A DNA stretch of 64,000 nucleotides. Source: Oribacterium sp. oral taxon 078 str. F0262. GTDB taxonomy: Bacteria > Bacillota > Clostridia > Lachnospirales > Lachnospiraceae. The DNA lies in the NCBI RefSeq assembly GCF_000160135.1, contig NZ_GG729933.1, positions 6,055 to 70,054 of the forward strand, read 5' to 3'. Position numbers and translations under genes: made by a program. Of this stretch, positions 41,273 through 55,211 are shown in pieces. The notes beneath the pieces were generated by a model. That model worked only from the letters and a program-made list of their open reading frames with translations, had not been told where the DNA came from and did no database searches. Every line of letters starts with the position of its first letter. Within the stretch, counting starts at the first letter, position 1.

Positions 41273-42034
41273 TTAAAAGCTCTGAACCCGGCTGAGAAAG
41301 CTCTTCATCCGCTCATTTTCCGAGCGGAAGACCTCCTCCGGGGGCCCCGAGAGGAGGACGGAGCCCTCCGCCATGAAGAGGATGCGGTCGGAGATCTCCC
41401 TCGCAAAGCCCATCTCGTGGGTGACGATGACCATGGCGATTTTCAGCTCCCGGAGGGAGAGGATCAGCTTCAGGACCTCTCCGCTCATCTCGGGGTCCAG
41501 GGCGGAGGTCGGCTCGTCGAAGAAGAGGAGCTTCGGGCGGAGGGCCAGAGCTCTTGCGATCGCGACTCTCTGCTGCTGTCCTCCGGAGAGCTCGCAGGGA
41601 TAGCTCCCCGCCTTTTCGAGGAGACCCATCCGGGAGAGGAGCTCCCGCCCCCTCTCCTCCGCCTCCGCCCTCGGGCGTTTCTGCACGTGGATTACGGCGT
41701 CTGTCACATTTTGCAGCACATTCCAGTGCGGGAAGAGGTGGAAGCTCTGGAAGACGAGTCCGTAGATGGACTTTAAATCCTTCAGTGTCTTCAGAGAGGC
41801 GTAGACCGACCGGCCGCCTTCGTCCTCATAGGCCGCCGCGATGCCCTCATAGGAGAGGCTTCCGAAGTCCATTCGCTCGAGGAGCGTCGCCAGGCGGAGA
41901 AGCGTGGACTTTCCCGAGCCGGAGGGACCGATGACGGATACGATCTCTCCCTCCGAGACGCTGAGATCGACGCCTCTCAGCACCTCCAGAGAGCCGAAAT
42001 CCTTCCGCACATTTTTCATTTCCAAGACATTCAT
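41273..42034 (-). CDS. Polar amino-acid ABC transporter ATPase
   Basis: A 253-residue GlnQ/HisP-type ATPase: Walker A GPSGSGKSTLLR, Q-loop GLVFQSFHLFPH, signature LSGGQQQRVAIARAL, Walker B LLFFDEPTSALDPE and switch VTHEM. It has an extra insertion of about 20 residues after the first strands (AAAYEDEGGRSVYASL). Third gene of a leftward operon after the binding protein and permease; GGAGAGG lies before the ATG. Confidence 0.93.
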   Translation of the reverse strand: MNVLEMKNVRKDFGSLEVLRGVDLSVSEGEIVSVIGPSGSGKSTLLRLATLLERMDFGSLSYEGIAAAYEDEGGRSVYASLKTLKDLKSIYGLVFQSFHLFPHWNVLQNVTDAVIHVQKRPRAEAEERGRELLSRMGLLEKAGSYPCELSGGQQQRVAIARALALRPKLLFFDEPTSALDPEMSGEVLKLILSLRELKIAMVIVTHEMGFAREISDRILFMAEGSVLLSGPPEEVFRSENERMKSFLSRVQSF

Positions 42035-42051
42035 TTCGTCCTCTCCATTTA

Positions 42052-42699
42052 TCAGATGCTGTAATAATCGAGGCGCTTCTCCAGCCTCTCCATCAAAAAG
42101 GCCACGATGAAATTGAAGATATAGTAGAAGATCCCGGCGGCGATCAGAGGGGTCATGGAGCTCTGAGCGGAGGAGAGGGCCTTGGCCGCGGTAAACATTT
42201 CCATCACCGAGATGGAGAAGGCGAGGGAGGTGTCCTTTACCAGGGTGATGACCTCATTTGTGACGGCAGGCAGGATCCGTTTTATGACCTGGGGGAGAAT
42301 GATGCGGAGGAAGCTCTGGGCCCTGCTGTAGCCGAGGATCTCCGCGGCCTCATACTGCCCCTTCGGGATGGACTGGATGCCGGAGCGGTAGATCTCCGCA
42401 AAATAGGCGGCGTAGTTTATGACAAAGCCGATGCAGACCGCGATATTCCGGTAGCCGGGGCTTAAGCGGATGCGGAAGAGATAGTAGGGGCCGTAGTAGA
42501 CCACAAAGAGCTGCAGCATGAGCGGCGTCCCCCGCATGATGGAGATATAGATCCGGATCAAGGCGGAGAGGGGGCCGTTTCGGCTCATCCTCCCGAGCGA
42601 AACGAGGAGGCCGAGAGGAAGAGATAGGATAAGCGTGATCAGAAAGATCTGAAAGCTCACGCCGAGGCCCTTGAGAAGAGGAAGAAGTATCTCCGCCAT
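42052..42699 (-). CDS. Polar amino-acid ABC transporter permease
   Basis: Integral membrane permease of the HisM/GlnP family, 215 residues, about five helices. The EAA-type coupling loop reads QYEAAEILGYSRAQSFLRIILPQ. Only one permease gene is present, so a homodimer with the neighbouring ATPase is likely. It ends 17 bases before the ATPase gene. Confidence 0.92.
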   Translation of the reverse strand: MAEILLPLLKGLGVSFQIFLITLILSLPLGLLVSLGRMSRNGPLSALIRIYISIMRGTPLMLQLFVVYYGPYYLFRIRLSPGYRNIAVCIGFVINYAAYFAEIYRSGIQSIPKGQYEAAEILGYSRAQSFLRIILPQVIKRILPAVTNEVITLVKDTSLAFSISVMEMFTAAKALSSAQSSMTPLIAAGIFYYIFNFIVAFLMERLEKRLDYYSI

Positions 42700-42765
42700 T
42701 CCGAAATCCTTTCTGTTTGGGAAGTAAAAGAAGAGCTGCGGGAGCTTCCGGGAGGGGAAGGAGCG

Positions 42766-43698
42766 CTATTTCAGAGTGAAGACATCGTCCTTTCCGAACC
42801 ATTTCCGGGAGATCTCCGCCGTGCTTCCGTCCTTTTCCATCTCAAGAAGGACAGTCCTCACACTTTGCGCGAGCTCGTCCTCTCCCTTTCGGAAGCCGAT
42901 CCCGTACTCCTCCGCGGAGAGGGTGTCGGAGAGGATCCTCATCTTCTCCTCGGAGCCAGGATTCTTCTTCTCCGAGTTTGTGATCTGGTAGCCCGCGACG
43001 ACGGAATCCATGCATACGGCATCGCAGGCACCGGACTGGAGATCCATCAGAGCGGTATTATAGTCCGCGACCTCCGTGAGGGAGGAGAAGGATTCCTTCA
43101 GCTTTTTATTTTCTTCCTCCTTCAGGGCGTCCAGTCCGGAGGAGTCCTTCTGAACCTCGACGGCCTTTCCGGAAAGGTCCGCGAGCGTCTCGATGCCGGA
43201 ATTATCCTTTACGACAAAGACCTGCTCATTTGCCATATAGGGGCCGACCCAGCTGTACTTGTCCTCCCGCCCCTGCATGGAGAAGCCGTTCCAGATGCAG
43301 TCGATATTGCCCGAGGAAAGCTCCATATCCTTTGCGTCCCAGTTGATCGGCTGGGGGACAAATTCGAGCCCCAGGCGCTTTGCGACCTCCTCCGCGAGCT
43401 CCAGGTCATAGCCCTGGTAGCCGCCCTTATCATCGACGAAGCCCATCGGCGGGAATTCCTGATCGAAGCCGACGGTGAACTTTCCGCTCGGCGTCTTCAC
43501 GCTCCCCTCCTTGCTTACGCTCTTCTCCGCCTCGCCTTTTTCCGCCTGGGAAGAGCCTTCGGAGCTCTTCTCCCCGGCCTTCTCCGTCACCTTTTCCGTT
43601 CCCTGCATCGTCGCCTTTTCGGAGCTCTCTCCTCCGCAGCCGCTGAGCAGTGCGGCCGCCGCGATCGCTGCGATTCCGATCCAAAGCTTTCTTTTCAT
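42766..43698 (-). CDS. Polar amino-acid ABC transporter binding lipoprotein
   Basis: Extracellular solute-binding protein of family 3. The 310 residues open with a lipoprotein signal, lipobox LLSGC (Cys21), an acidic Ser/Glu/Lys linker, then the domain GKFTVGFDQEFPPMGFVDDKGGYQGYDLELAEEVAKRLG in two parts, and end in KWFGKDDVFTLK. Start ATG 43698 has GGAGGG 5 bases upstream; the open frame continues to 43839 but without similarity. Cystine, histidine or glutamine-type substrates are possible. Confidence 0.92.
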   Translation of the reverse strand: MKRKLWIGIAAIAAAALLSGCGGESSEKATMQGTEKVTEKAGEKSSEGSSQAEKGEAEKSVSKEGSVKTPSGKFTVGFDQEFPPMGFVDDKGGYQGYDLELAEEVAKRLGLEFVPQPINWDAKDMELSSGNIDCIWNGFSMQGREDKYSWVGPYMANEQVFVVKDNSGIETLADLSGKAVEVQKDSSGLDALKEEENKKLKESFSSLTEVADYNTALMDLQSGACDAVCMDSVVAGYQITNSEKKNPGSEEKMRILSDTLSAEEYGIGFRKGEDELAQSVRTVLLEMEKDGSTAEISRKWFGKDDVFTLK

Positions 43699-43853
43699 AA
43701 TACCCTCCATAATGATCTTTTTGAGATGTCCTCCCTGCGGAAGTGTTCCCCCTGCCTCGCAGGATCCGCGGCTTTTGCTGTTATTCTCTTTTCTGCCGCG
43801 CTGAAGTGAGGCGGGAAGCCGGATTTCTGCCGCTGTCAAGGATTCCTTCCGAC

Positions 43854-43901
43854 ATTAGTTTAGTGTGATAACACGTTACCATGCTAAACTAATGCTGTCA
43901 A
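43854..43901 (-). promoter_or_regulatory. Palindromic operator and promoter of the amino-acid ABC operon
   Basis: Perfect 10-bp arms ATTAGTTTAG (43854-43863) and CTAAACTAAT (43884-43893) flank a 20-base centre that is itself partly symmetric (TAACACGTTA). On the minus strand a perfect TTGACA (43901-43896) stands right before it and a weak TAACGT -10 (43878-43873) falls inside at 17-base spacing. A dimeric regulator bound to the arms would cover the promoter. Confidence 0.6.
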
Positions 43902-43920
43902 GACTTTTCTTTTCTCATTC

Positions 43921-43949
43921 TTGCGGTTTTGTGCATATTTCCTTATAAT
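43921..43949 (+). promoter_or_regulatory. Promoter of the nucleoside importer/yjjI operon
   Basis: TTGCGG (43921-43926), 17 bases, perfect TATAAT (43944-43949). The leader (about 43956-44034) has a small hairpin GCCTGC/GCAGGC (44009-44023) immediately before the ribosome site, which could tune translation. No purine riboswitch core is recognised. Confidence 0.65.
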
Positions 43950-44034
43950 ATAATAATAAAAAAGATCGGGCGGAGGAGAGGCAGTCTTTCCGTCACGGTG
44001 CGGTTTTGCCTGCGCGGCAGGCGGAAGGAGTATT

Positions 44035-45165
44035 ATGAAAAAGAGAATTCTTTCGGCAATGATGGCGCTTTTCATGGCGGCGTCTCTCGCGTCCTGCGGA
44101 GGCTCCGCGGCGGAGAGCACAAAGGCCGCCTCCGAGGGGACAAAGGAAGAGTCCCAAAAGGAAGAGAAGGGGAGCAGCGCGGCGGAGGAGAAGGGCGAGA
44201 GCAAGGAGAAAAAGGCCGATGCCTCCGGCCTTAAGGTCGGGATCGTGACAGACGTCGGCGGTGTCAATGACGGATCCTTCAACCAGTCGGCCTGGGAGGG
44301 CCTCCAGAGGGCGGAGAAGGAGCTCGGTGTGCAGGCGAAGTACCAGGAATCGCACACAGATGCGGATTATAAGCCGAATATCGAGAACTTCGTGGACGAG
44401 GACTATGATCTCATCATCTGCATCGGCTATGCGCTTGCGGATGCGCTGAAGGAGGAGTCCGCGGCACATCCGGATGTGAAGTTTGCGATCGTGGACGACG
44501 CTTCTTTAGCGGATGCGAAAAATGTGACCTCTCTCATGTTTGAGCAGGCGCAGGTCTCCTATCTGGCCGGTTATGTGGCGGCAAAGACGACGAAGAAGAA
44601 TACGATCGGGATCGTGCTCGGCATGGCGACGGATCTCATGCATCAGTTCGGATATGGCTATCTCGCCGGTGCGATCGACGCAAATCCCGGAATCAAGGTG
44701 CTCCAGACCAATGCGAATTCCTTCGCGGACACTGCCGCCGGAAAGACCGCGGCGAACAATATGGTCGCGCAGGGAGCGGATGTCATCTTCCAGGTGGCGG
44801 GCGGCACGGGACTCGGCGTCATCGACGGCTGCAAGGAGGCCGGAATCTGGGCGATCGGCGTGGACTCCGACCAGAGCTCTATCGCACCGAAGACGATCCT
44901 GACCTCCGCGATGAAGAGAGTGGACAATGCGGTCTTCGATGTCACAAAGGAGCTTTCGGAAGGGAAGCTGGAGCCGGGAGTCAAGACCTACGCGCTCGCG
45001 GATGAGGGTGTGGATCTCGCGCCGGTCACGGACAATATCGACCCGACCGTGCTCTCTGAGGTCGAGGAACTCAAGAAGAAGATCATCTCCGGGGAGATCA
45101 CGGTCCCGAAGACAAAGGCGGAGTTCGAGGCAAAGTACGGCTCTGTCTACGAGCTGGACGACTAA
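44035..45165 (+). CDS. BMP-family nucleoside-binding lipoprotein
   Basis: Substrate-binding lipoprotein of the BmpA/PnrA/TmpC family, which binds purine or pyrimidine nucleosides outside the cell. The 376 residues have signal peptide and lipobox (Cys21 in SLASC), a charged linker of 40 residues, then VGIVTDVGGVNDGSFNQSAWEGL, ICIGYALADAL, and FQVAGGTGLGVIDGCKEAG. It is the first gene of the operon; the ATPase and permeases follow after yjjI and yjjW. Confidence 0.93.
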   Translation: MKKRILSAMMALFMAASLASCGGSAAESTKAASEGTKEESQKEEKGSSAAEEKGESKEKKADASGLKVGIVTDVGGVNDGSFNQSAWEGLQRAEKELGVQAKYQESHTDADYKPNIENFVDEDYDLIICIGYALADALKEESAAHPDVKFAIVDDASLADAKNVTSLMFEQAQVSYLAGYVAAKTTKKNTIGIVLGMATDLMHQFGYGYLAGAIDANPGIKVLQTNANSFADTAAGKTAANNMVAQGADVIFQVAGGTGLGVIDGCKEAGIWAIGVDSDQSSIAPKTILTSAMKRVDNAVFDVTKELSEGKLEPGVKTYALADEGVDLAPVTDNIDPTVLSEVEELKKKIISGEITVPKTKAEFEAKYGSVYELDD

Positions 45166-45218
45166 GGAGCAGGGAGAGACAGAGGTTTAGCCGCCCGGCC
45201 TTCGGACGGAGGGAGCGA

Positions 45219-46775
45219 ATGGGAAAAATGAGAGAAATCACGATGGAGAGGGTGGAGAAGACACGGGAGGAGATGCTTAAGACCGTGAAATCCCCAGTGC
45301 TCACGCATGAGCAGAAGGTCGCCGCGATGGCATCCCTCGCGGATTCCCTCCTGGAGGTGCTGAACATCCCGGAGGGGCTCTCCGAGCTCCTCGATGCACC
45401 GATCGAGACGCAGTGCATCTGCGATCTCTTTGAGGGGCACGCGCCGATGCGCCCCCGATACATCATCCCGGACTACGGGCGCTTTCTGAAGGAGGGCTCC
45501 TCCTTCCTGGAGCTCGGAGCGCCGGGAGATCTCTATGAGGCGATCAATGCGCTGGAGATTTTCTATAAGCATGTCCCCTCCGTCACGAATTATCCGGTCT
45601 ATGTGGGGGCTTTGGACCGGCTTTTGGAGCCCTTTGTCTCTTCCATGGACGAGGAGGAGGCCTATCGGCTGATCCGGGCCTTCTTCATCCATATGGACCG
45701 GACGATCCTGGACTCCTTCTCCCACGGAAATATCGGCCCTGAGAGGACGAAGGCGGGAAGTCTCATCCTCCGCGCGATCGCGGAGACGAAGGACGCGGTC
45801 CCGAATATGACGATGAAGTATGACGCCTCCCTGACGGAGGATGCGTTTTTGCTGGAGGCGGTCCGCGCCGCTTTGGAGAGCGCAAAGCCGAGCTTTGCGA
45901 ACGATGCGATGTTTCGCTCGGAGCTCGGGCCGGAGTATGTCATCGCATCCTGCTATAACGGCCTCCCCGAGGGAGGAGGCTCCTATACGCTCTGCCGCCT
46001 GATTCTCGGAAATATCGCAAAGCGCGCGAAGGGGATTGAGGACTTTCTCTCCCGGGAGCTTCCCTATGTGATGGATCTTCAGGCCCGCTATATGGATGAG
46101 CGGATCCGCTTCATCGTCGAGGAGTCCGGCTTCTTCGAGAACAATTTCCTCGCGAAGGAGGGCTTCATCCGAAGGGAGCGCTTTACGGCGATGTTCGGCC
46201 TTGTGGGACTCGCGGAGGCGGTCAATATCCTGCTCGAGAAAGAGGGGAAGAAGGGCCTTCGCTTCGGGCATTCCGAGGAGGCCGTGTCGCTCGGCGTCCG
46301 CATCATGGACACAATTTCCGCCTTTAACGAGGCGCACAGAAATCCCTACTGCGAGGTGAGCGGCGGGCATTTTCTCCTGCACGCGCAGGTCGGGATCTCC
46401 AGTGACATCGGTATCAGCCCCGGGACCAGGATTCCGATCGGGGAGGAGCCGGAGGAGCTCGTGGATCAGCTGGAGCTTCTGAGCCGCTTCCACCACTATT
46501 TTCCCTCCGGGACGGGAGATATCTTTCCGATTGAGCGGACGGTGCACCGGAATCCGGAATATATCATGGATATCATTAAGGGAGCCTTTCAGAAGAAGCT
46601 CCGCTACCTCTCCTTCTACTCCAGTGACTCCGATGTGATCCGGATCACCGGCTATCTCGTGAAGCGCTCGGAGATCAAAACTCTCGAGAAGGGCGGGAAT
46701 GTGAAGCATGATACGACGGCGCTCGGCATGGGCGCAAAGCAAAATGGCCATATTCTGGAGAGGAGAGTCCGCTGA
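45219..46775 (+). CDS. yjjI: YjjI-family glycyl radical enzyme
   Basis: Oxygen-sensitive glycyl radical enzyme of the YjjI family (DUF3029); reaction not established to my knowledge. The 518 residues show the cysteine loop SCYNGLPEGGG (Cys245, thiyl radical) and the C-terminal radical loop RITGYLV with Gly478. Length matches E. coli YjjI. It is not class III ribonucleotide reductase: there is no ATP cone, no C-terminal zinc site and the loops differ. Its TGA overlaps the yjjW ATG (TGATG). It stands inside a nucleoside importer operon. Confidence 0.9.
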   Translation: MGKMREITMERVEKTREEMLKTVKSPVLTHEQKVAAMASLADSLLEVLNIPEGLSELLDAPIETQCICDLFEGHAPMRPRYIIPDYGRFLKEGSSFLELGAPGDLYEAINALEIFYKHVPSVTNYPVYVGALDRLLEPFVSSMDEEEAYRLIRAFFIHMDRTILDSFSHGNIGPERTKAGSLILRAIAETKDAVPNMTMKYDASLTEDAFLLEAVRAALESAKPSFANDAMFRSELGPEYVIASCYNGLPEGGGSYTLCRLILGNIAKRAKGIEDFLSRELPYVMDLQARYMDERIRFIVEESGFFENNFLAKEGFIRRERFTAMFGLVGLAEAVNILLEKEGKKGLRFGHSEEAVSLGVRIMDTISAFNEAHRNPYCEVSGGHFLLHAQVGISSDIGISPGTRIPIGEEPEELVDQLELLSRFHHYFPSGTGDIFPIERTVHRNPEYIMDIIKGAFQKKLRYLSFYSSDSDVIRITGYLVKRSEIKTLEKGGNVKHDTTALGMGAKQNGHILERRVR

Positions 46776-47761
46776 TGAGGGCTCCGGTCAACCGGATTAT
46801 CCCTTTCAGCGCAGTCGACGGGCCGGGAAACCGGACCGCCGTTTTTTTACAGGGCTGTAATTTTAACTGTAAGTACTGCCATAATCCGGAGACCCGGAAG
46901 CTGTGCATTCACTGCGGGGACTGCGTGGAGGACTGTCCGGGAGGAGCGCTGTATTTCTCTGATTCTCCTTTTCCTTCCGCATCCCGCCCTTTTCCGGGGG
47001 AAGAGAAACAAGAGTCTGCACGGACGGCGCCTGCATTATCCTCTTACCCTTTTTGGGGGGAAGAAAAAAGAGAGGGCATTTCGGAGGAGAGAGAGCGGGA
47101 AAGCCCCCATTCCGGGAGATGGGTGCTCTTTTCTCCGGAAAAGTGCATTGGCTGTGATCGCTGCATCCGGATATGCCGTCACGACGCGAGCCCGCGCATC
47201 CGCTGGATGAGTCCGGAGGAGCTCCTCCGGGAGCTGTCCAAAAATCGTCCCTTTATCCGGGGAGTGACGGTCTCCGGCGGAGAGTGCACCCTCTATCCGG
47301 CCTTCCTCCGGGAGCTCGCCGCCCTCCTTCTTTCGGAGGGCTTGGAGCTTTTGCTCGATTCGAATGGAAGCTATGATTTTTCGGAGGATCCCGCGGGACT
47401 GCTTCCGCTCCTCTCCGGTGTCATGCTGGATGTCAAGGCCTGGAAGAGAGAGGAGCATGAAAGAGTCACCGGAACGGGCAATGAGGATGTCCTCAGGAAT
47501 CTGCGCTCTCTCCTGCAATGCGGCAAGCTCTATGAGCTTCGAACTGTGGTGGTGCCGGGGCTTTTCGACTATGAGGGCTGCATCCGGGAGTGCGCGAGGC
47601 TGCTCCGGCCCTACCCGGAGGTCCGCTATAAGATCATCGCCTTTCGGAAGAACGGCGTGAGAGCGGAATATCGGGATTTCGAGAGCCCGACGGAGGAGGA
47701 GATGTCCCGCCTCTTGGAAATCGCAAAAAGCGAGGGGGCGGTGAAGGTATTGACCCTGTAG
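46775..47761 (+). CDS. yjjW: YjjW-family glycyl radical enzyme activase
   Basis: Radical SAM enzyme that abstracts hydrogen from the glycine of YjjI. The SAM cluster motif is CNFNCKYC (Cys28, Cys32, Cys35); it is followed by two ferredoxin-type clusters, CIHCGDCVEDC (44-54) and CIGCDRCIRIC. The rest (VSGGECTLYPAFL, LLDSNGSYDF, MLDVKAWKREEHERVTGTG) is typical of GRE activases. Between the two ferredoxin motifs lies an extra segment of about 50 residues (about 63-112), low in complexity, that E. coli YjjW lacks. Confidence 0.9.
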   Translation: MRAPVNRIIPFSAVDGPGNRTAVFLQGCNFNCKYCHNPETRKLCIHCGDCVEDCPGGALYFSDSPFPSASRPFPGEEKQESARTAPALSSYPFWGEEKREGISEERERESPHSGRWVLFSPEKCIGCDRCIRICRHDASPRIRWMSPEELLRELSKNRPFIRGVTVSGGECTLYPAFLRELAALLLSEGLELLLDSNGSYDFSEDPAGLLPLLSGVMLDVKAWKREEHERVTGTGNEDVLRNLRSLLQCGKLYELRTVVVPGLFDYEGCIRECARLLRPYPEVRYKIIAFRKNGVRAEYRDFESPTEEEMSRLLEIAKSEGAVKVLTL

Positions 47762-47791
47762 GGAAGACGGGAAAGGGGGCAGGGGAGAAAT

Positions 47792-49327
47792 ATGGGAAGC
47801 AACATGGACGGGAAGACCGTGGTCATCGAGATGCGCGGCATCGTGAAGCGCTTCGGGGACTTCGTCGCAAACGATCATATCGATCTCACCCTTCACAAGG
47901 GGGAGGTTCTCGCGGTGCTCGGAGAGAACGGTGCGGGGAAATCCACGCTGATGAATGTGCTCTACGGCATGTACCGCCCGACGGAGGGCGTGATCCGGAT
48001 CGAGGGAAAAGAGGTGGAGATCGACAGCCCGGAGAAGGCGATCGCGCTCGGTATCGGCATGGTGCACCAGCACTTTATGCTGATTCCTCCCTTTAGTGTG
48101 ACGGAGAACATCGTGCTCGGTTCGGAGCCGAGGAAGGGGATCAGTGTGGACCTTGCGGGGGCGAGAAAAAAGATTTTGGAGCTCTCGGAGAGCTACAATC
48201 TGAAGGTCGATCCGGACGCGAAGATCGAGGACATCAGTGTCGGAATGCAGCAGAGGGTGGAGATCCTGAAGGTCCTCTACCGGGGGGCGAAGATCCTGAT
48301 TCTGGATGAGCCGACGGCCTCCCTCACGCCTCAGGAGATCGACGAGCTCATGGAGATCATCCGAAGCCTCACGGCCGCCGGGAAATCCATCCTTTTAATC
48401 ACGCATAAGCTGAAGGAAATCAAGGCGAGCTCGGATCACTGTATGATCATCCGGAGGGGAAAGTATATCGATACGGTGAAGGTCTCGGAGCACACGGAGG
48501 ATGAGCTCGCATCGCTCATGGTGGGGCGGAAGGTCAGCCTCCGGGCGGAGAAGGAGGAGAGGAATCCGGGGGAGACGGTCCTCTCCGTAAAGGAGCTTCG
48601 GGCGAGGGACTACCGCGGCGCGGAGATCCTGAAGGGGCTCAGTCTCTCGATCCGAGGAGGAGAGATCCTGGGACTTGCCGGGATCGACGGAAACGGGCAG
48701 TCTCAGCTTGTGGAGATTCTCACCGGCCTCTCCAAGGCGGAGTCCGGCGAGGTGAGGATGGGGGGAGAAAACATCTTAAATCATACGCCGCGAGATACCT
48801 TCTTAAAGGGGGTTTCCAGCATCCCGGAGGACAGGCAGAAGCACGGACTGGTGCTCGACTTCACAGTGGCGGAGAATCTCATATTACAGAATTTCGGACA
48901 GAGGCCGTACTCGCATCGGGGGATCCTCAACAAGGGGGCGATCCGAAAGCATGCGGCGGAGCTGATCGAGCGCTTTGATATCCGTCCCTCAGGCTGCGAG
49001 GAGCGGCCCGCGGGACAGCTCTCCGGAGGGAATCAGCAAAAGGTCATCATCGCCAGAGAGGTGACAAATGACAAGGAGCTTCTGATCGCCTTTAATCCGA
49101 CGAGAGGGCTCGATGTCGGCGCGATCGAGTTTGTGCACAGCTATCTCCTGGGACAGAGGAACAAGGGCCGCGCGATCCTTCTGGTCTCCTTCGAGCTGGA
49201 GGAAATCATGGGGCTCTCGGATCGGATCGCCGTCATCTTCGACGGAAGGATCGCGGGGGAGATGCCCGGGAAGGATGCGGACGAGTATCAGCTTGGTCTT
49301 TTGATGGCGGGAGGAAAAGCGGAATGA
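47792..49327 (+). CDS. Nucleoside/simple-sugar ABC transporter ATPase (duplicated NBD)
   Basis: A 511-residue protein with two ATPase halves, like YufO/RbsA. First half: GENGAGKSTLMNVLYG, HQHFMLIPPFSVTENI, signature ISVGMQQRVEILKVLY, LDEPTASLTPQE. Second half: GIDGNGQSQLVEIL (degenerate Walker A, normal here), EDRQKHGLVLDF, LSGGNQQKVIIAREV, then FNPTRGLDVGAI. It pairs with the BMP lipoprotein at 44035. Starts 30 bases after yjjW; stop overlaps the permease start (ATGA). Confidence 0.94.
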   Translation: MGSNMDGKTVVIEMRGIVKRFGDFVANDHIDLTLHKGEVLAVLGENGAGKSTLMNVLYGMYRPTEGVIRIEGKEVEIDSPEKAIALGIGMVHQHFMLIPPFSVTENIVLGSEPRKGISVDLAGARKKILELSESYNLKVDPDAKIEDISVGMQQRVEILKVLYRGAKILILDEPTASLTPQEIDELMEIIRSLTAAGKSILLITHKLKEIKASSDHCMIIRRGKYIDTVKVSEHTEDELASLMVGRKVSLRAEKEERNPGETVLSVKELRARDYRGAEILKGLSLSIRGGEILGLAGIDGNGQSQLVEILTGLSKAESGEVRMGGENILNHTPRDTFLKGVSSIPEDRQKHGLVLDFTVAENLILQNFGQRPYSHRGILNKGAIRKHAAELIERFDIRPSGCEERPAGQLSGGNQQKVIIAREVTNDKELLIAFNPTRGLDVGAIEFVHSYLLGQRNKGRAILLVSFELEEIMGLSDRIAVIFDGRIAGEMPGKDADEYQLGLLMAGGKAE

Positions 49328-50400
49328 AAAGCGGAATGAAACAGAAAATTTTGAAAAGTCCGACGCTCTATACGCTTCTTTCCATCGCGCTCGGATTTTT
49401 GCTCGGCGCGATCCTCCTCTTTCTGATCGGCGTAAATCCTGCGGTGGCCTACGGGAAGCTCTGGAACGGGATCTTCGGAAAGCCGAAGTTCGTCGTCTAC
49501 AGCATCGTCTATGCCGCACCGCTCATCTTTACGGGGCTCTCGGTCGCCTTCTCCTTCCGGACCGGTGTATTCAACATCGGGGCAGAGGGGCAGTATATTA
49601 TGGGAAGCCTCGCAGCGCTTGTCGTGGGTCTCCTCGTCCCGCTCCCGGCGCCATTCCACGCGATCGTGTGCCTGCTTTCGGCGGCTCTTGCGGGAGGGCT
49701 CTGGGGCGCTCTCGCGGGTCTTCTCAAGGTGAAGAAGGGGATCAATGAGGTCCTCTCCTACATCATGCTGAACTGGATCGCCTTTTACTTCTCAAACTAT
49801 GTGATCAACCAAAAGGCGATCCACACGGAGCAGGGGGCGGATGCCAGCAGGAATATCTTAAAGAGCGCAAGCATCCGCATGCCGGAGTTCTTCTCGCGCC
49901 TGAGCGGCTGTACGGATATTCACTGGGGCATCGTGCTCGCGCTCCTTGCGGCTCTCCTCATCTGGTTTATCATGGCGAAGACGAGCTTCGGCTATCAGCT
50001 CCGCGCAGTGGGCTATTCCCGCTCGGCGGCGGAATACGCCGGCATCGATTCGAAGAAAGTCTTCCTCCTCTCAATGGGGATCTCCGGAATGCTGGCGGCG
50101 CTCGGCGGTGCGGTGCAGGTCCTCGGCATGGCGGAGCGGATCGCCCAGTTCGCCTCACAGGAGGGCTATGGCTTCCAGGGGATCACGGTGGCCCTGATCG
50201 GCGGGACGAATCCGATCGGATGCATCTTCTCGGGACTTTTCTACGGGGCCATGAAGTACGGAGGGAATAAGCTGACCGTCGTGAATGTCCCGACGGAGGT
50301 CGTAAATATCATCATGGGGACGATCATCATCTTCATTGCGATCACCCCGTCGGTCCGCACGGTGCTCCTGAGGGCCGTCAGAGGGGAGGGAGGGAAATAA
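49324..50400 (+). CDS. Nucleoside ABC transporter permease 1
   Basis: A 358-residue integral membrane protein of the YufP family (BPD_transp_2), eight or more hydrophobic segments. Family hallmarks: PLIFTGLSVAFSFRTGVFNIGAEGQ and LGGAVQVLGMAERIAQFASQEGYGFQGITVALIGG. It is the larger of the two permeases that form a heterodimer. It overlaps the ATPase gene by 4 bases and is 2 bases from the next gene. Confidence 0.93.
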   Translation: MKSGMKQKILKSPTLYTLLSIALGFLLGAILLFLIGVNPAVAYGKLWNGIFGKPKFVVYSIVYAAPLIFTGLSVAFSFRTGVFNIGAEGQYIMGSLAALVVGLLVPLPAPFHAIVCLLSAALAGGLWGALAGLLKVKKGINEVLSYIMLNWIAFYFSNYVINQKAIHTEQGADASRNILKSASIRMPEFFSRLSGCTDIHWGIVLALLAALLIWFIMAKTSFGYQLRAVGYSRSAAEYAGIDSKKVFLLSMGISGMLAALGGAVQVLGMAERIAQFASQEGYGFQGITVALIGGTNPIGCIFSGLFYGAMKYGGNKLTVVNVPTEVVNIIMGTIIIFIAITPSVRTVLLRAVRGEGGK

Positions 50401-50402
50401 GT

Positions 50403-51332
50403 ATGCTGCTCACCTATCTCGGACTTTTGATCAATGCGATGCTCATCTCCACGCCGCCGCTCCTCCTCGCGGGACTCGGCTCCTGCTTCTCGGAGAGATC
50501 CGGCGTCGTAAATATCGGCATCGAGGGAATGATGACGATCGGCGCCTTCGTCGGCGCCCTCGCCGCCTACTATACGAGCAACGGCTGGATCGGCTTCCTC
50601 TGCGGAGGGCTCGCGGGGGCGCTCCTCGGCCTGATCCACGCCGCGGCCTGCATCAGTCTGCATGCGGACCAGACCATCGCGGGCACGGCGATCAACTTCA
50701 TCGGCCCCGGCTGCGCGGTGTTTTTGTGCAAGGCGATCTTTGAGAACTCCTCCGACAGCCCGGCGCTCGATACAGCGGCGAAGCTTCCGAAGATGTTCGT
50801 CGGAGTCTTTCCGGCGGGCTCCTTCGCCTACAATGTGATTTCGACCTATTCCGTGGCCTATCTCAGCTTCCTTCTCGTCCTCCTTCTCTGGTTCGTCTTT
50901 TTCAAAACGCGCTACGGGATGCGGCTCCGGGCCGTCGGAGAGCACCCGGAGGCCTGCGCGACGCTCGGGATCAATGTCTACCGGATCCGCTATACCGCGG
51001 TTATCCTCTCGGGCTTTCTCGCGGGGCTGGGGGGAGCGTTCGTGACGCTTGCGACGGTCTCGCAGTTCCGCCCCTCCGTCATCGTGGGGCAGGGCTTCAT
51101 CGCGATCGCGGCGGTGATCTTCGGGAAGTTCACACCGCAGGGGACCCTCCTCGGCTGCCTGATCTTCGGGCTCTGCAACGGGCTCCGCTCTCTTCTTGGC
51201 GGCTCGAACCTGATCTCACCGCACCTTCTCTCCATGATCCCCTATGTCGTGACGCTGCTCACCCTGATCCTCTTCGTGGGGGCGGGACATGTCCCGGCCG
51301 CAAACGGAAAGCCCTATCTGAGATCAAAATGA
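50403..51332 (+). CDS. Nucleoside ABC transporter permease 2
   Basis: A 309-residue YufQ-type permease: FSERSGVVNIGIEGMMTIGAF, DQTIAGTAINFIGPG, GMRLRAVGEHPEACATLGINVYRIRY and the C-terminal AAVIFGKFTPQGTLLGCLIFG. It completes the importer. It is the last gene of the operon; a GC-rich hairpin follows. Confidence 0.93.
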   Translation: MLLTYLGLLINAMLISTPPLLLAGLGSCFSERSGVVNIGIEGMMTIGAFVGALAAYYTSNGWIGFLCGGLAGALLGLIHAAACISLHADQTIAGTAINFIGPGCAVFLCKAIFENSSDSPALDTAAKLPKMFVGVFPAGSFAYNVISTYSVAYLSFLLVLLLWFVFFKTRYGMRLRAVGEHPEACATLGINVYRIRYTAVILSGFLAGLGGAFVTLATVSQFRPSVIVGQGFIAIAAVIFGKFTPQGTLLGCLIFGLCNGLRSLLGGSNLISPHLLSMIPYVVTLLTLILFVGAGHVPAANGKPYLRSK

Positions 51333-51355
51333 TTCTGTAATATCTCAGGGCCCGT

Positions 51356-51390
51356 CCTCCGCTCCCCGCTTTCCCGGAAAGAGGCGGAGG
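51356..51390 (+). terminator. Hairpin after the nucleoside importer operon
   Basis: CCTCCGC pairs with GCGGAGG around an inner CTTTCC/GGAAAG stem. There is no T-run, so termination is likely but not certain. Confidence 0.45.
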
Positions 51391-51489
51391 CTTCCATTCC
51401 AAAGAGAAGGGAGCGAAGAGGGATGCATCAGGAGAGGGGGAAGGAGATGGAGGCAGAAGGAATGGACGAAGGGAAGGAGATCGATTCAA

Positions 51490-52716
51490 ATGGACTGGAA
51501 GAAGCTTTTGAAACCGCAGTACCTCATCCTTTCTCTCTATGTGATCGCGACTGCACTGCTCCTTTATATCGGAAGCAAGCTGGTGGATCACTTCGGGGAT
51601 CTTCTGAAATCGGCGGAGGGGATTTTCGGCTGGCTCCTCATCGTCCTAAAGCCCCTTGCGCTCGGCTTCTCCTTCGCCTATCTTCTGAGTCCGGTGGTGG
51701 AATTTTGGGAGAAGAGACTTAAGGAGATCCTCCCGGAGAGAAGAAGCGCAGGGGAAAAGAAGGGGAAGGGAAGAGGGGAGCGGAGAGGATGCCGGCCTGC
51801 CGCACTCCTCTTAACCTTCCTCCTTGTGATCCTTTCCGTCACATTGCTTTTGTCCCTTTTGGTCTCCGCGCTCACAAGCAGCGTGCAGCTTGCTGACATG
51901 GATAATCTCTGGGAGATGGCCTCCGGCTTTGCCGCCGCCGTAAACGGTTTCTACCAGGATATCCTGCAGAAGCTCTCAAAGCTCCCGGTCGGGGGGAGCG
52001 ACTTCAGTCAATATCTGCAGGATGGGGTCGGGACGGGACTGTCCTTCCTCCAGGGCTTTTTGCAGGGGATTCTGTCGACCTTCGGGAATGTGGGCTCCTT
52101 CCTCTCAAGCTTTGTCTTCGCTCTGATCTTTTGCATCTACTTTCTCCTGGACGGGGAAAATATCGCCCGCTATTGGGGGAGAGCCTTCCGCCTCCTCTTC
52201 GGTGAGCGGATCTTCCGCCTTCTCGGCGTCTTTCTCTCGGATGCGGACCGGGCCTTCTCTGGCTATATCCGCGGGCAGATCATCGACGCCGTCATCATGA
52301 TGGTCCTGGTCAGTGCCGTCCTGGCTCTGGTCGGCGTGAAATACGCCCTCATTATCGGAATCCTCACGGGGATCGGGAATCTGATCCCCTATACCGGACC
52401 CCTGGTCGCCTATGGCTCGACTCTCCTGATCTGCCTCCTCTACGGAGATTACCGGAGACTTTTGATCGCGCTCCCCCTCCTCTTTGTGATCCAGACCCTG
52501 GATGGAAATATCATAAATCCGAAGCTTTTAAGCGACAGCGTGAATGTACACCCGCTCCTTGTCATCGCCTCTCTTTTGATCGGAGGCGCGGCGGGCGGCT
52601 TCCTGGGCATGCTGATCGCGGTCCCCGTCGGGAGCCTTTTAAAGATTCAGTTTGACCGCCTGCTCCGCTATAAGGAGGGAAAAAGCTGCTCTGCTGCGGG
52701 AGATCCTGTCTCCTGA
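51490..52716 (+). CDS. AI-2E family transporter
   Basis: A 408-residue integral membrane protein of the AI-2 exporter/UPF0118 family with about seven or eight helices. A positively charged cytoplasmic loop (ERRSAGEKKGKGRGERRG) follows helix 2. Conserved parts: YIRGQIIDAVIMMVLV, GILTGIGNLIPYTGPLVAY and the ending LLIGGAAGGFLGMLIAVPV. The family name overstates what is known; members export AI-2, move cations or have no known substrate. GGAAGGAG lies 9 bases before the ATG. Confidence 0.88.
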   Translation: MDWKKLLKPQYLILSLYVIATALLLYIGSKLVDHFGDLLKSAEGIFGWLLIVLKPLALGFSFAYLLSPVVEFWEKRLKEILPERRSAGEKKGKGRGERRGCRPAALLLTFLLVILSVTLLLSLLVSALTSSVQLADMDNLWEMASGFAAAVNGFYQDILQKLSKLPVGGSDFSQYLQDGVGTGLSFLQGFLQGILSTFGNVGSFLSSFVFALIFCIYFLLDGENIARYWGRAFRLLFGERIFRLLGVFLSDADRAFSGYIRGQIIDAVIMMVLVSAVLALVGVKYALIIGILTGIGNLIPYTGPLVAYGSTLLICLLYGDYRRLLIALPLLFVIQTLDGNIINPKLLSDSVNVHPLLVIASLLIGGAAGGFLGMLIAVPVGSLLKIQFDRLLRYKEGKSCSAAGDPVS

Positions 52717-54888: not shown

Positions 54889-55036
54889 GACTTTCTTCGC
54901 AGAGCATGATTCCCGCGAAGATCATGTTCTTACAGGAACAATGATTCCCGCGTGGCTTTGCGGCCCGGGCCGCTCCCGCCCCGCGCCCTTCATTCGCATT
55001 CCCGCGTGGCTTCGCCCCGCTGCATGCTCATGAAGG
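54889..55036. repeat. 148-bp tandem repeat, copy 2
   Basis: Second unit with exactly the same period. Differences from copy 1 include CGCAGAGCATGATTCC for CGCGGAGCATGATTTCC and GCTTTGCGGCCCGGGC for GCTTCGCGGCTCGGC. Confidence 0.85.
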
Positions 55037-55040
55037 GGGC

Positions 55041-55097
55041 GTGTCATAAAGTTCCTTCTCCCCTCTCGTGCAAGCACGTCGCGGAGAAGGAACTTTC
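55041..55097. repeat. Flanking hairpin element (second copy near 54692)
   Basis: AAAGTTCCTTCTCC (55048-55061) pairs perfectly with GGAGAAGGAACTTT (55083-55096), and a second hairpin CGTGC/GCACG sits in its loop. A slightly degraded copy with the same design is at 54692-54747, on the other side of the tandem units. Confidence 0.8.
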
Positions 55098-55211
55098 GAC
55101 ACTACTGGAATCATTGTATCGGAGATTCTGGGGGATGTCAAAGGGCTCTCGGGCATTGAAAAAATACGGGATTTTGCTACAATAGGGGGCGTTCTTTGAG
55201 GAGGGGGATCT

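Follow-up and report, generated by a model that had tools for sequence, protein, structure and literature searches.

A YjjI-family glycyl radical enzyme and its activase inside a predicted nucleoside-importer operon of Oribacterium

Introduction

YjjI is an oxygen-sensitive and poorly understood radical enzyme. Glycyl radical enzymes (GREs) of the dehydratase and lyase type carry a C-x-E motif, and many, though not all, class III ribonucleotide reductases (NrdD) possess an ATP cone. Two C-terminal cysteines of E. coli NrdD, C662 and C665, bind Zn. A further conserved cysteine, C79 in the T4 enzyme and C175 in that of E. coli, serves the reductive half-reaction (PMC4493059).

The genetic setting of YjjI has been described in a few organisms. 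In E. coli, the yjjI-yjjW pair (b4380-b4379) starts 257 bp from the divergent deoC; it is marked as FNR-activated in a table of PMC2634741, and a role for YjjI in nitrogen metabolism was once predicted from co-expression (PMC3228777). In Haemophilus influenzae type f, a gene list in PMC5609409 places a YjjI-family enzyme, a radical SAM protein and a NupC/NupG nucleoside transporter within one 3.1-kb recombinant region. Besides this list, we found in the open-access literature, to the extent that its text is accessible, no other publication placing YjjI with a nucleoside gene. On the transport side, guanosine was fitted in the crystal density of the binding protein Lbp (7x0r; PMC9601137), which is a fitted density and not a measured affinity; the older name of Lbp as part of a laminaribiose importer is rejected, since the density does not bear it out.

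Here we describe a locus in Oribacterium sp. oral taxon 078 str. F0262 in which yjjI and yjjW are enclosed by the genes of an importer with an Lbp-like binding protein. The window, meaning the whole stretch of DNA analysed, comprises 64,000 nucleotides of contig NZ_GG729933.1.

Results

Operon layout

The locus consists of six genes, listed here with three codons of YjjI discussed below.

44035-45165, + strand: BMP-family substrate-binding lipoprotein, Lbp-like (ORF; PF02608 Bmp, E 3.4e-76)
45219-46775, + strand: YjjI family glycyl radical enzyme, 518 aa (ORF; TIGR04040; AF2 model; fold search)
45459-45461, + strand: Tyr81 codon of YjjI, aligned to E. coli NrdD Cys175 (93/93 YjjI rows)
45951-45953, + strand: Cys245 codon of YjjI, aligned to E. 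coli NrdD Cys384
46650-46652, + strand: Gly478 codon of YjjI, in RITGYL, aligned to E. coli NrdD Gly681
46775-47761, + strand: YjjW radical SAM activase of YjjI, assigned by family (ORF; TIGR04041)
47792-49327, + strand: ABC transporter ATPase, nucleoside-type importer (ORF; ABC_tran)
49324-50400, + strand: importer permease P (ORF; BPD_transp_2)
50403-51332, + strand: importer permease Q (ORF; BPD_transp_2)

All six genes share one strand, and by their ORF coordinates no gap exceeds 53 bp: 53 bp between the BMP gene and yjjI, a 1-nt overlap (TGATG) between yjjI and yjjW, 30 bp between yjjW and the ATPase gene, a 4-nt overlap between the latter and permease P, and 2 bp between the permeases. 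A consensus scan placed no terminator-like site in the gaps between these genes, and nine in 43700-52000 as a whole, against a shuffle mean of 7.5. The operon is flanked upstream by a divergent gene on the - strand starting at 43839 and downstream, 157 bp away, by an AI-2E family gene at 51490. The preliminary description had read the binding lipoprotein as split from its ATPase and permeases by YjjI-YjjW, and both the open reading frames and the families confirm it. A 9-bp inverted repeat upstream of the BMP gene, considered as an operator, was rejected, as it is not conserved in an alignment of seven upstream regions from the genus.

To place this layout in context, 95 non-redundant loci were assembled from the 80 best-scoring loci and those of the window's family, merged at 96%; because it comprises the best-scoring loci, the set of 80 leans to the window's clade. 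The exact order BMP-YjjI-YjjW-ABC-P-Q occurs in 43 of the 95, and the operon gene order is thus a conserved arrangement rather than a chance neighbourhood.

The binding lipoprotein and its importer

The window BMP protein carries both PF02608 and a lipoprotein signal, with a lipobox, LASC, read from the sequence. The nearest solved binding protein is Lbp (7x0r), at 453.7 bits, compared with 185.1 for the pneumococcal-type lipoprotein 6y9u and 179 for TmpC (2fqw). Lbp is itself the binding protein of a yjjI operon (locus L300, whose protein has letters matching 7x0r and is 57% identical to the window BMP over 374 aa), which has the same gene order as the window operon and in which PNP, Cdd and DeoC are also found. 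Set against the PnrA, TmpC, BmpD and Lbp lipoproteins of PF02608, the window operon is distinguished by yjjI-yjjW standing between binding protein and ATPase. By its kinship with Lbp, the window BMP is predicted to bind a nucleoside. The nearest NCBIfam models of the four importer proteins are parts of a putative B6 transporter; since every score falls well short of its cut-off (125 vs 400 for the BMP), a B6 importer was rejected and the name is not used here.

Linkage of yjjI with nucleoside genes

Within the window's family, sampled at one genome per genus, a BMP gene lies near yjjI in 22 of 28 loci and in none of 40 control 20-kb stretches, at places chosen in the same genomes rather than drawn at random; for nucleoside enzyme genes the corresponding counts are 17/28 and 3/40. 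The ATPase was left out of the linkage argument because its HMM matches 14/40 of the controls. Among the six family loci lacking BMP, four are in genomes with an Lbp-type BMP on another contig, and the other two sit at contig ends. With at most six candidates scored per genome, an Lbp-type BMP (E ≤ 1e-75) was counted in 15 of 27 YjjI-positive but only 2 of 272 YjjI-negative genomes (Fisher 3e-16). The same association is seen within the genus, where YjjI occurs in 7 of 17 genomes and the BMP orthologue in the same seven, followed directly by yjjI in every case (7/7), whereas all 12 BMP paralogues are followed by an ATPase gene instead. Together with operons in genomes G082 and G054, these 12 are importer operons without yjjI, and import therefore does not need YjjI. 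The presence of a YjjI-activator pair inside a nucleoside-uptake operon is nonetheless a feature of many Lachnospiraceae-type bacteria.

The HMMs used to annotate the wider neighbourhoods derive from the same neighbours that they annotate; for ten clusters a single member each was compared with Pfam, and one of these ten matched no family. Among the 95 loci, Cdd was found in 38, PNP/Udp in 34, DeoC in 25, Ada in 24, DeoB in 18, Udk in 11, PyNP in 10 and PunA in 8; a Crp-like gene was found in 21, and the activase gene adjoins yjjI in 87. Divergent YjjI lineages show orders of their own, namely YjjI-YjjW-nucleoside hydrolase-BMP, YjjI-YjjW-MtnA-aldolase-regulator-BMP, and YjjI-YjjW-BMP followed further on by PNP-Cdd. 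At one locus (L176), MtnA and a class II aldolase adjoin yjjI-yjjW, and in at least three of the 95 loci, PNP/Udp and DeoB genes lie between yjjI and yjjW. The YjjI tree, which excludes the class loci, L185-L187 and L190, was built quickly and drew long-branch warnings, so it gives no firm number of independent gains of the linkage.

Outside the family, where neighbourhoods came from 24 of 25 yjjI genomes (G537 was left out), 35 of 42 sampled loci lack a BMP gene within the stretches fetched; several of the 42 are on short contigs of down to 3.8 kb. Thirty neighbours identified by Pfam are mostly chemoreceptors, RuvAB, peptidases and similar proteins, and the HMMs found nucleoside genes at none of five loci from Proteus, Vibrio, Aeromonas, Haliovirga and Chloroflexota. 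The preliminary description had tied YjjI to nucleosides and held that a lack of enrichment near nucleoside genes in a neighbourhood survey would speak against the tie. The survey strongly supports it for the window's family and several further lineages, but the link does not extend to most loci of other families. The adjacency to deo genes in E. coli, which had served as a second argument, proved a weak pillar: in Proteus, ytjB-serB and not the deo genes directly adjoin yjjW-yjjI, and within 8 kb the stretches from Vibrio and Aeromonas contain no deo gene. The window pair resembles that of E. coli in both families, in adjacency and in the downstream position of the activase; it differs in lying inside an ABC importer operon, in having no deo genes beside it and in its YjjI, which is 42% identical. 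The H. influenzae type f region is a third, unrelated setting that pairs YjjI with a nucleoside gene.

YjjI and its relation to class III ribonucleotide reductase

The window YjjI scores 681.5 bits against TIGR04040 (cut-off 498.3) and 717.1 against PF11230 (cut-off 23), and its YjjW 329.6 against TIGR04041 (cut-off 250.2). The hallmarks of the GRE superfamily are present, comprising an R(V/I)xGY-type C-terminal glycine loop and a finger-loop cysteine, both in 93/93 rows, and a cognate radical SAM activase encoded by the overlapping yjjW. Tyr81, Arg80, Cys245 and Gly478 are invariant in 93/93 rows. Among 28 diverse rows, 39 positions are invariant, and Cys245 is the sole invariant cysteine of this 28-row A2 alignment. 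From these alignments, Cys245 is presumed to be the thiyl residue and Gly478 the glycyl radical site.

The best fold match of the YjjI AF2 model is NrdD (VIA Z 29.2, 474 residues, rmsd 3.0), which fills ranks 1-18; the first other GRE is PflD at Z 24.6. The profile match to NrdD reaches a probability of 98.9 over 416 columns, and YjjI narrowly misses the Pfam NRDD gathering score (25.7 bits vs 26.2). A BFVD search returned phage and viral ribonucleotide reductases, NrdD among them, and adds nothing. PFL, PflD, glycerol/propanediol dehydratase, CutC and HypD share the superfamily fold at Z 22.9-24.6 and are thus farther from YjjI than NrdD by this measure. In a weak match (E 0.15), the YjjI segment IASCYN aligns with IACCVS of PFL, with Ser at the position of PFL's first active-site cysteine; unlike the dehydratases and lyases, YjjI has C-Y-N, with Asn instead of Glu two residues after the cysteine, in 93/93 rows.

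YjjI resembles NrdD in its fold and radical pair (Cys245-C384 and Gly478-G681, in E. coli numbering of the reductase). It differs from the E. coli enzyme in having Tyr81 at the reductive Cys175 and Arg80 at N174, and in lacking a counterpart of C662 and C665; no ATP-cone family was found in YjjI by hmmscan at E ≤ 0.001. A mapping of NrdD Asn412 was dropped and no claim is placed on this residue, because two hhalign runs disagree. Although its modelled fold is nearest to that of class III ribonucleotide reductase, YjjI is unlikely to be a reductase that makes dNTPs, considering the invariant Tyr in place of the reductive cysteine and the lack of both the Zn cysteines and an ATP cone. The missing reductive cysteine alone does not exclude another reductant.

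Discussion

The whole is best explained, with fair probability, by an importer for nucleosides that has an anaerobic radical enzyme integrated into its operon. Ribo- or deoxyribonucleosides would enter through the BMP lipoprotein and its ABC transporter, while YjjW would install a radical on Gly478 of YjjI, which may then move to Cys245 on an NrdD-type finger loop, enabling this residue to abstract a substrate hydrogen. We consider it likely that the imported compound is the substrate of YjjI, either as the free, noncyclic-phosphate nucleoside or as its first phosphorolysis product. Whether the chemistry takes place on the ribosyl part is evenly balanced; that it is redox-neutral, with the sugar undergoing a radical elimination or rearrangement, is slightly favoured because an NrdD-like fold is combined with Tyr81 for the reductive cysteine and with neither ATP cone nor Zn cysteines. 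The reaction may feed anaerobic nucleoside breakdown or salvage. The most specific form of this proposal, which we advance tentatively, casts YjjI as a catabolic relative of anaerobic ribonucleotide reductase that takes free nucleosides from a dedicated importer and cleaves or dehydrates their ribosyl part by redox-neutral radical chemistry, a reaction for which we know of no described enzyme.

Alternatively, YjjI may act downstream of phosphorolysis and, in the manner of a dehydratase or C-O lyase, convert a free pentose or ribose-1-P, deoxyribose-1-P or ribulose-1-P. The frequency of DeoC and DeoB, the MtnA and aldolase genes of L176 and the insertion of PNP/Udp and DeoB genes between yjjI and yjjW all agree with such a role, and sugar-phosphate chemistry of this kind exists among GREs, as the PDB fold matches include PflD/YbiW bound to cyclic sugar phosphates. 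However, Cdd and Ada, which act on intact nucleosides, are as frequent or more so, and the fold is nearer to NrdD, which binds base plus sugar, making this somewhat unlikely. The deoxyribose or ribose intermediate suggested in the preliminary description is just one candidate substrate of several. The NrdD-like fold and matching Cys/Gly pair would also suit an NrdD relative in catabolism or salvage that reduces free ribonucleosides with some reductant outside the known Cys/formate set, and whose deoxyribonucleoside product would be used by the nearby DeoC and DeoB; with the cysteine assigned to the reductive half-reaction (PMC4493059) replaced by Tyr throughout, we regard it as quite improbable.

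It is also conceivable, though unlikely, that the operon partners share regulation by anaerobiosis and Crp/Fnr-type regulators rather than a pathway, YjjI acting on another substrate and the importer perhaps carrying another BMP ligand. The Crp-like genes, the FNR activation (PMC2634741) and co-expression prediction (PMC3228777), the distance of most outside-family yjjI genes from nucleoside genes and the sub-threshold B6 transporter matches are all compatible with this, but the importer recurs with yjjI in differing gene orders and with differing nucleoside enzymes, and the binding protein co-occurs with YjjI even from another contig. Finally, a spare or regulatory protein without a substrate of its own, like the small PFL rescue protein, might be suspected from the short length of YjjI for a GRE; given the retained finger-loop cysteine, the adjoining activase and the many invariant positions, this is very improbable indeed.

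For a glycyl radical enzyme without an assigned role even in E. coli, the linkage to nucleoside import supplies candidates and narrows the substrates to a short list of nucleosides and their first sugar products. The operon further offers a dedicated binding protein with a measurable ligand, and its crystallised homologue (7x0r) comes from a tractable organism. If the proposal of a nucleoside importer with a built-in radical enzyme is true, the radical superfamily would gain a member that acts on nucleosides, with implications for how the handling of nucleosides arose in the ribonucleotide reductase fold.

Operon structure

The six genes that the preliminary description had placed in a nucleoside importer operon all lie on the plus strand, exactly at the positions it assigned, and Pfam and NCBIfam identify them as a BMP-family (substrate-binding) lipoprotein, the glycyl radical enzyme YjjI, its radical SAM activase YjjW, an ABC ATPase and two BPD_transp_2 permeases. 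Successive spacings are 53 bp, a 1-nt overlap, 30 bp, a 4-nt overlap and 2 bp, a scan found no terminator-like sites in the gaps, and judging from this layout the six genes are likely one transcript. Elsewhere in the same genome, outside the operon, there are three genes of PNP_UDP_1 type and a single DeoC gene, and thus any partner enzymes would act in trans. The window's YjjW (46775-47761) has 328 aa, versus 276-319 aa for the forms in the divergent-lineage gene orders compared, and is rich in Ser, Pro and Glu over residues about 64-115, which lie between its ferredoxin cysteines. Other features of the window are as follows.

41273-43839, minus strand: ABC importer of the amino-acid type (SBP_bac_3 lipoprotein, permease, ATPase), oriented divergently to the YjjI operon
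43855-43895: 9-base inverted repeat, TTAGTTTAG / CTAAACTAA, in the interval separating the BMP gene from the divergent amino-acid importer; no conservation across seven upstream regions from the genus
54942-55113, minus strand: Clostridiales-1 RNA, a described small RNA (Rfam RF01699, 106.9 bits)

Linkage within and outside the family

With one genome per genus, true YjjI is present in 27 of 299 Lachnospiraceae genomes; the tally over the cut-off, 28, includes a 23-bit match in a 706-codon frame (genome G211). These 27 genomes contribute 28 yjjI loci, the window included, of which 22 have a BMP gene and 17 a nucleoside enzyme gene, against 0/40 and 3/40 control 20-kb stretches chosen in genomes of the family and phylum samples. 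Among the six BMP-less loci, four come from genomes whose close BMP homologue lies on a different contig (G236, G164, G049, G174) and two lie at contig ends (L125, L133). The best 80 relatives in GTDB genomes, a sample biased toward the window's clade, have BMP in 63 and a nucleoside gene in 55. Merged at 96% identity, the two samples give 95 loci, 73 with BMP, 62 with any nucleoside gene and 77 with either; BMP is always on the same strand as yjjI, at position -1 in 56. Some Lachnospiraceae have another conserved yjjI setting, without an importer (L068, L062, L067, L113; clusters 18, 19, 20, 44, 64).

The third sample, outside the family, combined 24 phylum-sample loci with 18 class-sample loci and had BMP in 4 and 3, respectively; the stretch fetched for the remaining 35 of 42 had none. 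Linkage is therefore strong among genomes of Lachnospiraceae type and sporadic elsewhere. Outside-family neighbours include chemoreceptors, CheW, RuvA/RuvB, a Na+/H+ antiporter, peptidases, a sugar kinase and a glycosyl transferase, and the 30 looked up share no common nucleoside theme, L176 excepted; chemoreceptor (MCP) genes adjoin yjjI in other Clostridia (L164, L295, L299). Nucleoside HMMs matched none of five stretches (Proteus, Vibrio, Aeromonas, Haliovirga, Chloroflexota). In E. coli, the divergent deoC lies 257 bp from the yjjI start; in Proteus mirabilis (L188, 5986-10368), ytjB-serB directly adjoins yjjI-yjjW, and E. coli's neighbouring deo genes were not found in that stretch. An earlier computational study used co-expression and an FNR-like motif to assign yjjI to nitrogen metabolism (PMC3228777), and a second paper marks it as FNR-activated (PMC2634741). 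Broken YjjI genes occur at L294 (G841:C28; a 71-residue match with four TGA), at L291 and L293 (G1057; split into two frames) and at L190 (an Aeromonas frame with one stop).

A dedicated binding protein

Within the genus, YjjI is found in 7 of 17 genomes, the same seven that hold the BMP orthologue (at least 68% identical), which yjjI follows in 7/7; paralogous BMP genes (at most 42% identical) are followed directly by an ATPase gene in 12/12. Family-wide, 15/27 YjjI-positive versus 2/272 YjjI-negative genomes have a BMP match at E <= 1e-75 (Fisher 3e-16). In both exceptions, G082 and G054, the importer operon lacks yjjI, and that of G054 contains DeoB, PNP, DeoC, Cdd and PyNP; YjjI is thus an extra to nucleoside import and is not required for it.

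Importer-linked YjjI falls in six places in the tree, whose deep forks are partly open: an 81-row clade with the window; L126-L130 with L132; L135/L136; L134/L137; L167/L168/L170; and L176.

Gene orders at yjjI loci (L numbers) of divergent lineages; P and Q, importer permeases
L126, L127: YjjI-YjjW-BMP-ABC-P-Q, with Crp, PNP and Cdd
L135, L136: YjjI-YjjW-nucleoside hydrolase-BMP-ABC-P-Q; hydrolase confirmed in L136
L134: PunA, LacI regulator, YjjI-YjjW-amidohydrolase-ABC-P-Q and BMP
L176: YjjI-YjjW-MtnA-class II aldolase-sugar regulator-BMP-ABC

In L135, an 8-oxoguanine deaminase scores above the cut-off, and PNP/Udp and DeoB separate yjjI from yjjW in at least 3 of the 95 loci. A passage on H. 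influenzae type f places YjjI, a radical SAM protein and a NupC/NupG transporter in one 3.1-kb region (PMC5609409). Different transporter families and nucleoside enzymes therefore recur with YjjI-YjjW. At L176 (5440-9000), yjjI-yjjW and the BMP importer are separated by the MtnA-type isomerase, the class II aldolase and the sugar-binding regulator, an arrangement that resembles a route for ribose-1-P or 5-deoxyribose.

Importer ligand

The best solved relative of the window's BMP is Lbp (7x0r, 453.7 bits). The translated BMP gene of L300 (genome G1041) matches the 7x0r letters, and this genome is therefore that of C. thermocellum or a very close relative. There the genes run PNP/Udp, Lbp, YjjI, YjjW (seen by tblastn, not by gene calling), ATPase, P, Q, Cdd, DeoC, and window and L300 are 68.5% identical in YjjI and 57.2% in BMP. 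The crystal study fitted guanosine into Lbp density that was there without added ligand and did not find laminaribiose to fit; its mutant in transporter L grew without defect on glucose, cellobiose, Avicel and laminaribiose (PMC9601137). Of the earlier suggestion that YjjI acts on a nucleoside-derived compound, perhaps a deoxyribose or ribose intermediate, the nucleoside part is supported by linkage and the guanosine-modelled Lbp; the specific sugar intermediate is one of several possibilities.

Fold and predicted chemistry

Over 28 diverse rows, YjjI has one invariant cysteine, C245, and the glycine G478 is likewise invariant. The AlphaFold model (pLDDT 86.5, pTM 0.88; residues 401-410 poorly predicted) is nearest to NrdD: class III ribonucleotide reductases fill Foldseek ranks 1-17 and VIA ranks 1-18 (Z 29.2 to 24.6; PflD next, 24.6), and hhalign agrees (probability 98.9 and 98.3 in two runs). 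The latter pairs YjjI with E. coli NrdD as C245-C384, G478-G681, Y81-C175 and R80-N174, with Y81 and R80 invariant; NrdD cysteines 662 and 665 have no YjjI partner. C175 is described as the cysteine of NrdD's reductive half-reaction (PMC4493059). A thiyl radical on C245 would start the chemistry as in NrdD, but NrdD's reductive step could not follow in the known way; the retention of C245 and G478 with Y81 in place of C175 suggests such a start with a redox-neutral outcome, and we favour an elimination or a rearrangement with no net change in redox state. The neighbouring Cdd and Ada genes point to a pathway involving intact nucleosides, and DeoC, DeoB and MtnA point to sugar phosphates.

The YjjI family is known, and no function assignment was found in the open-access literature searched. 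Here YjjI emerges as a glycyl radical enzyme of NrdD fold that lacks NrdD's reductive cysteine and is linked with a dedicated nucleoside importer.
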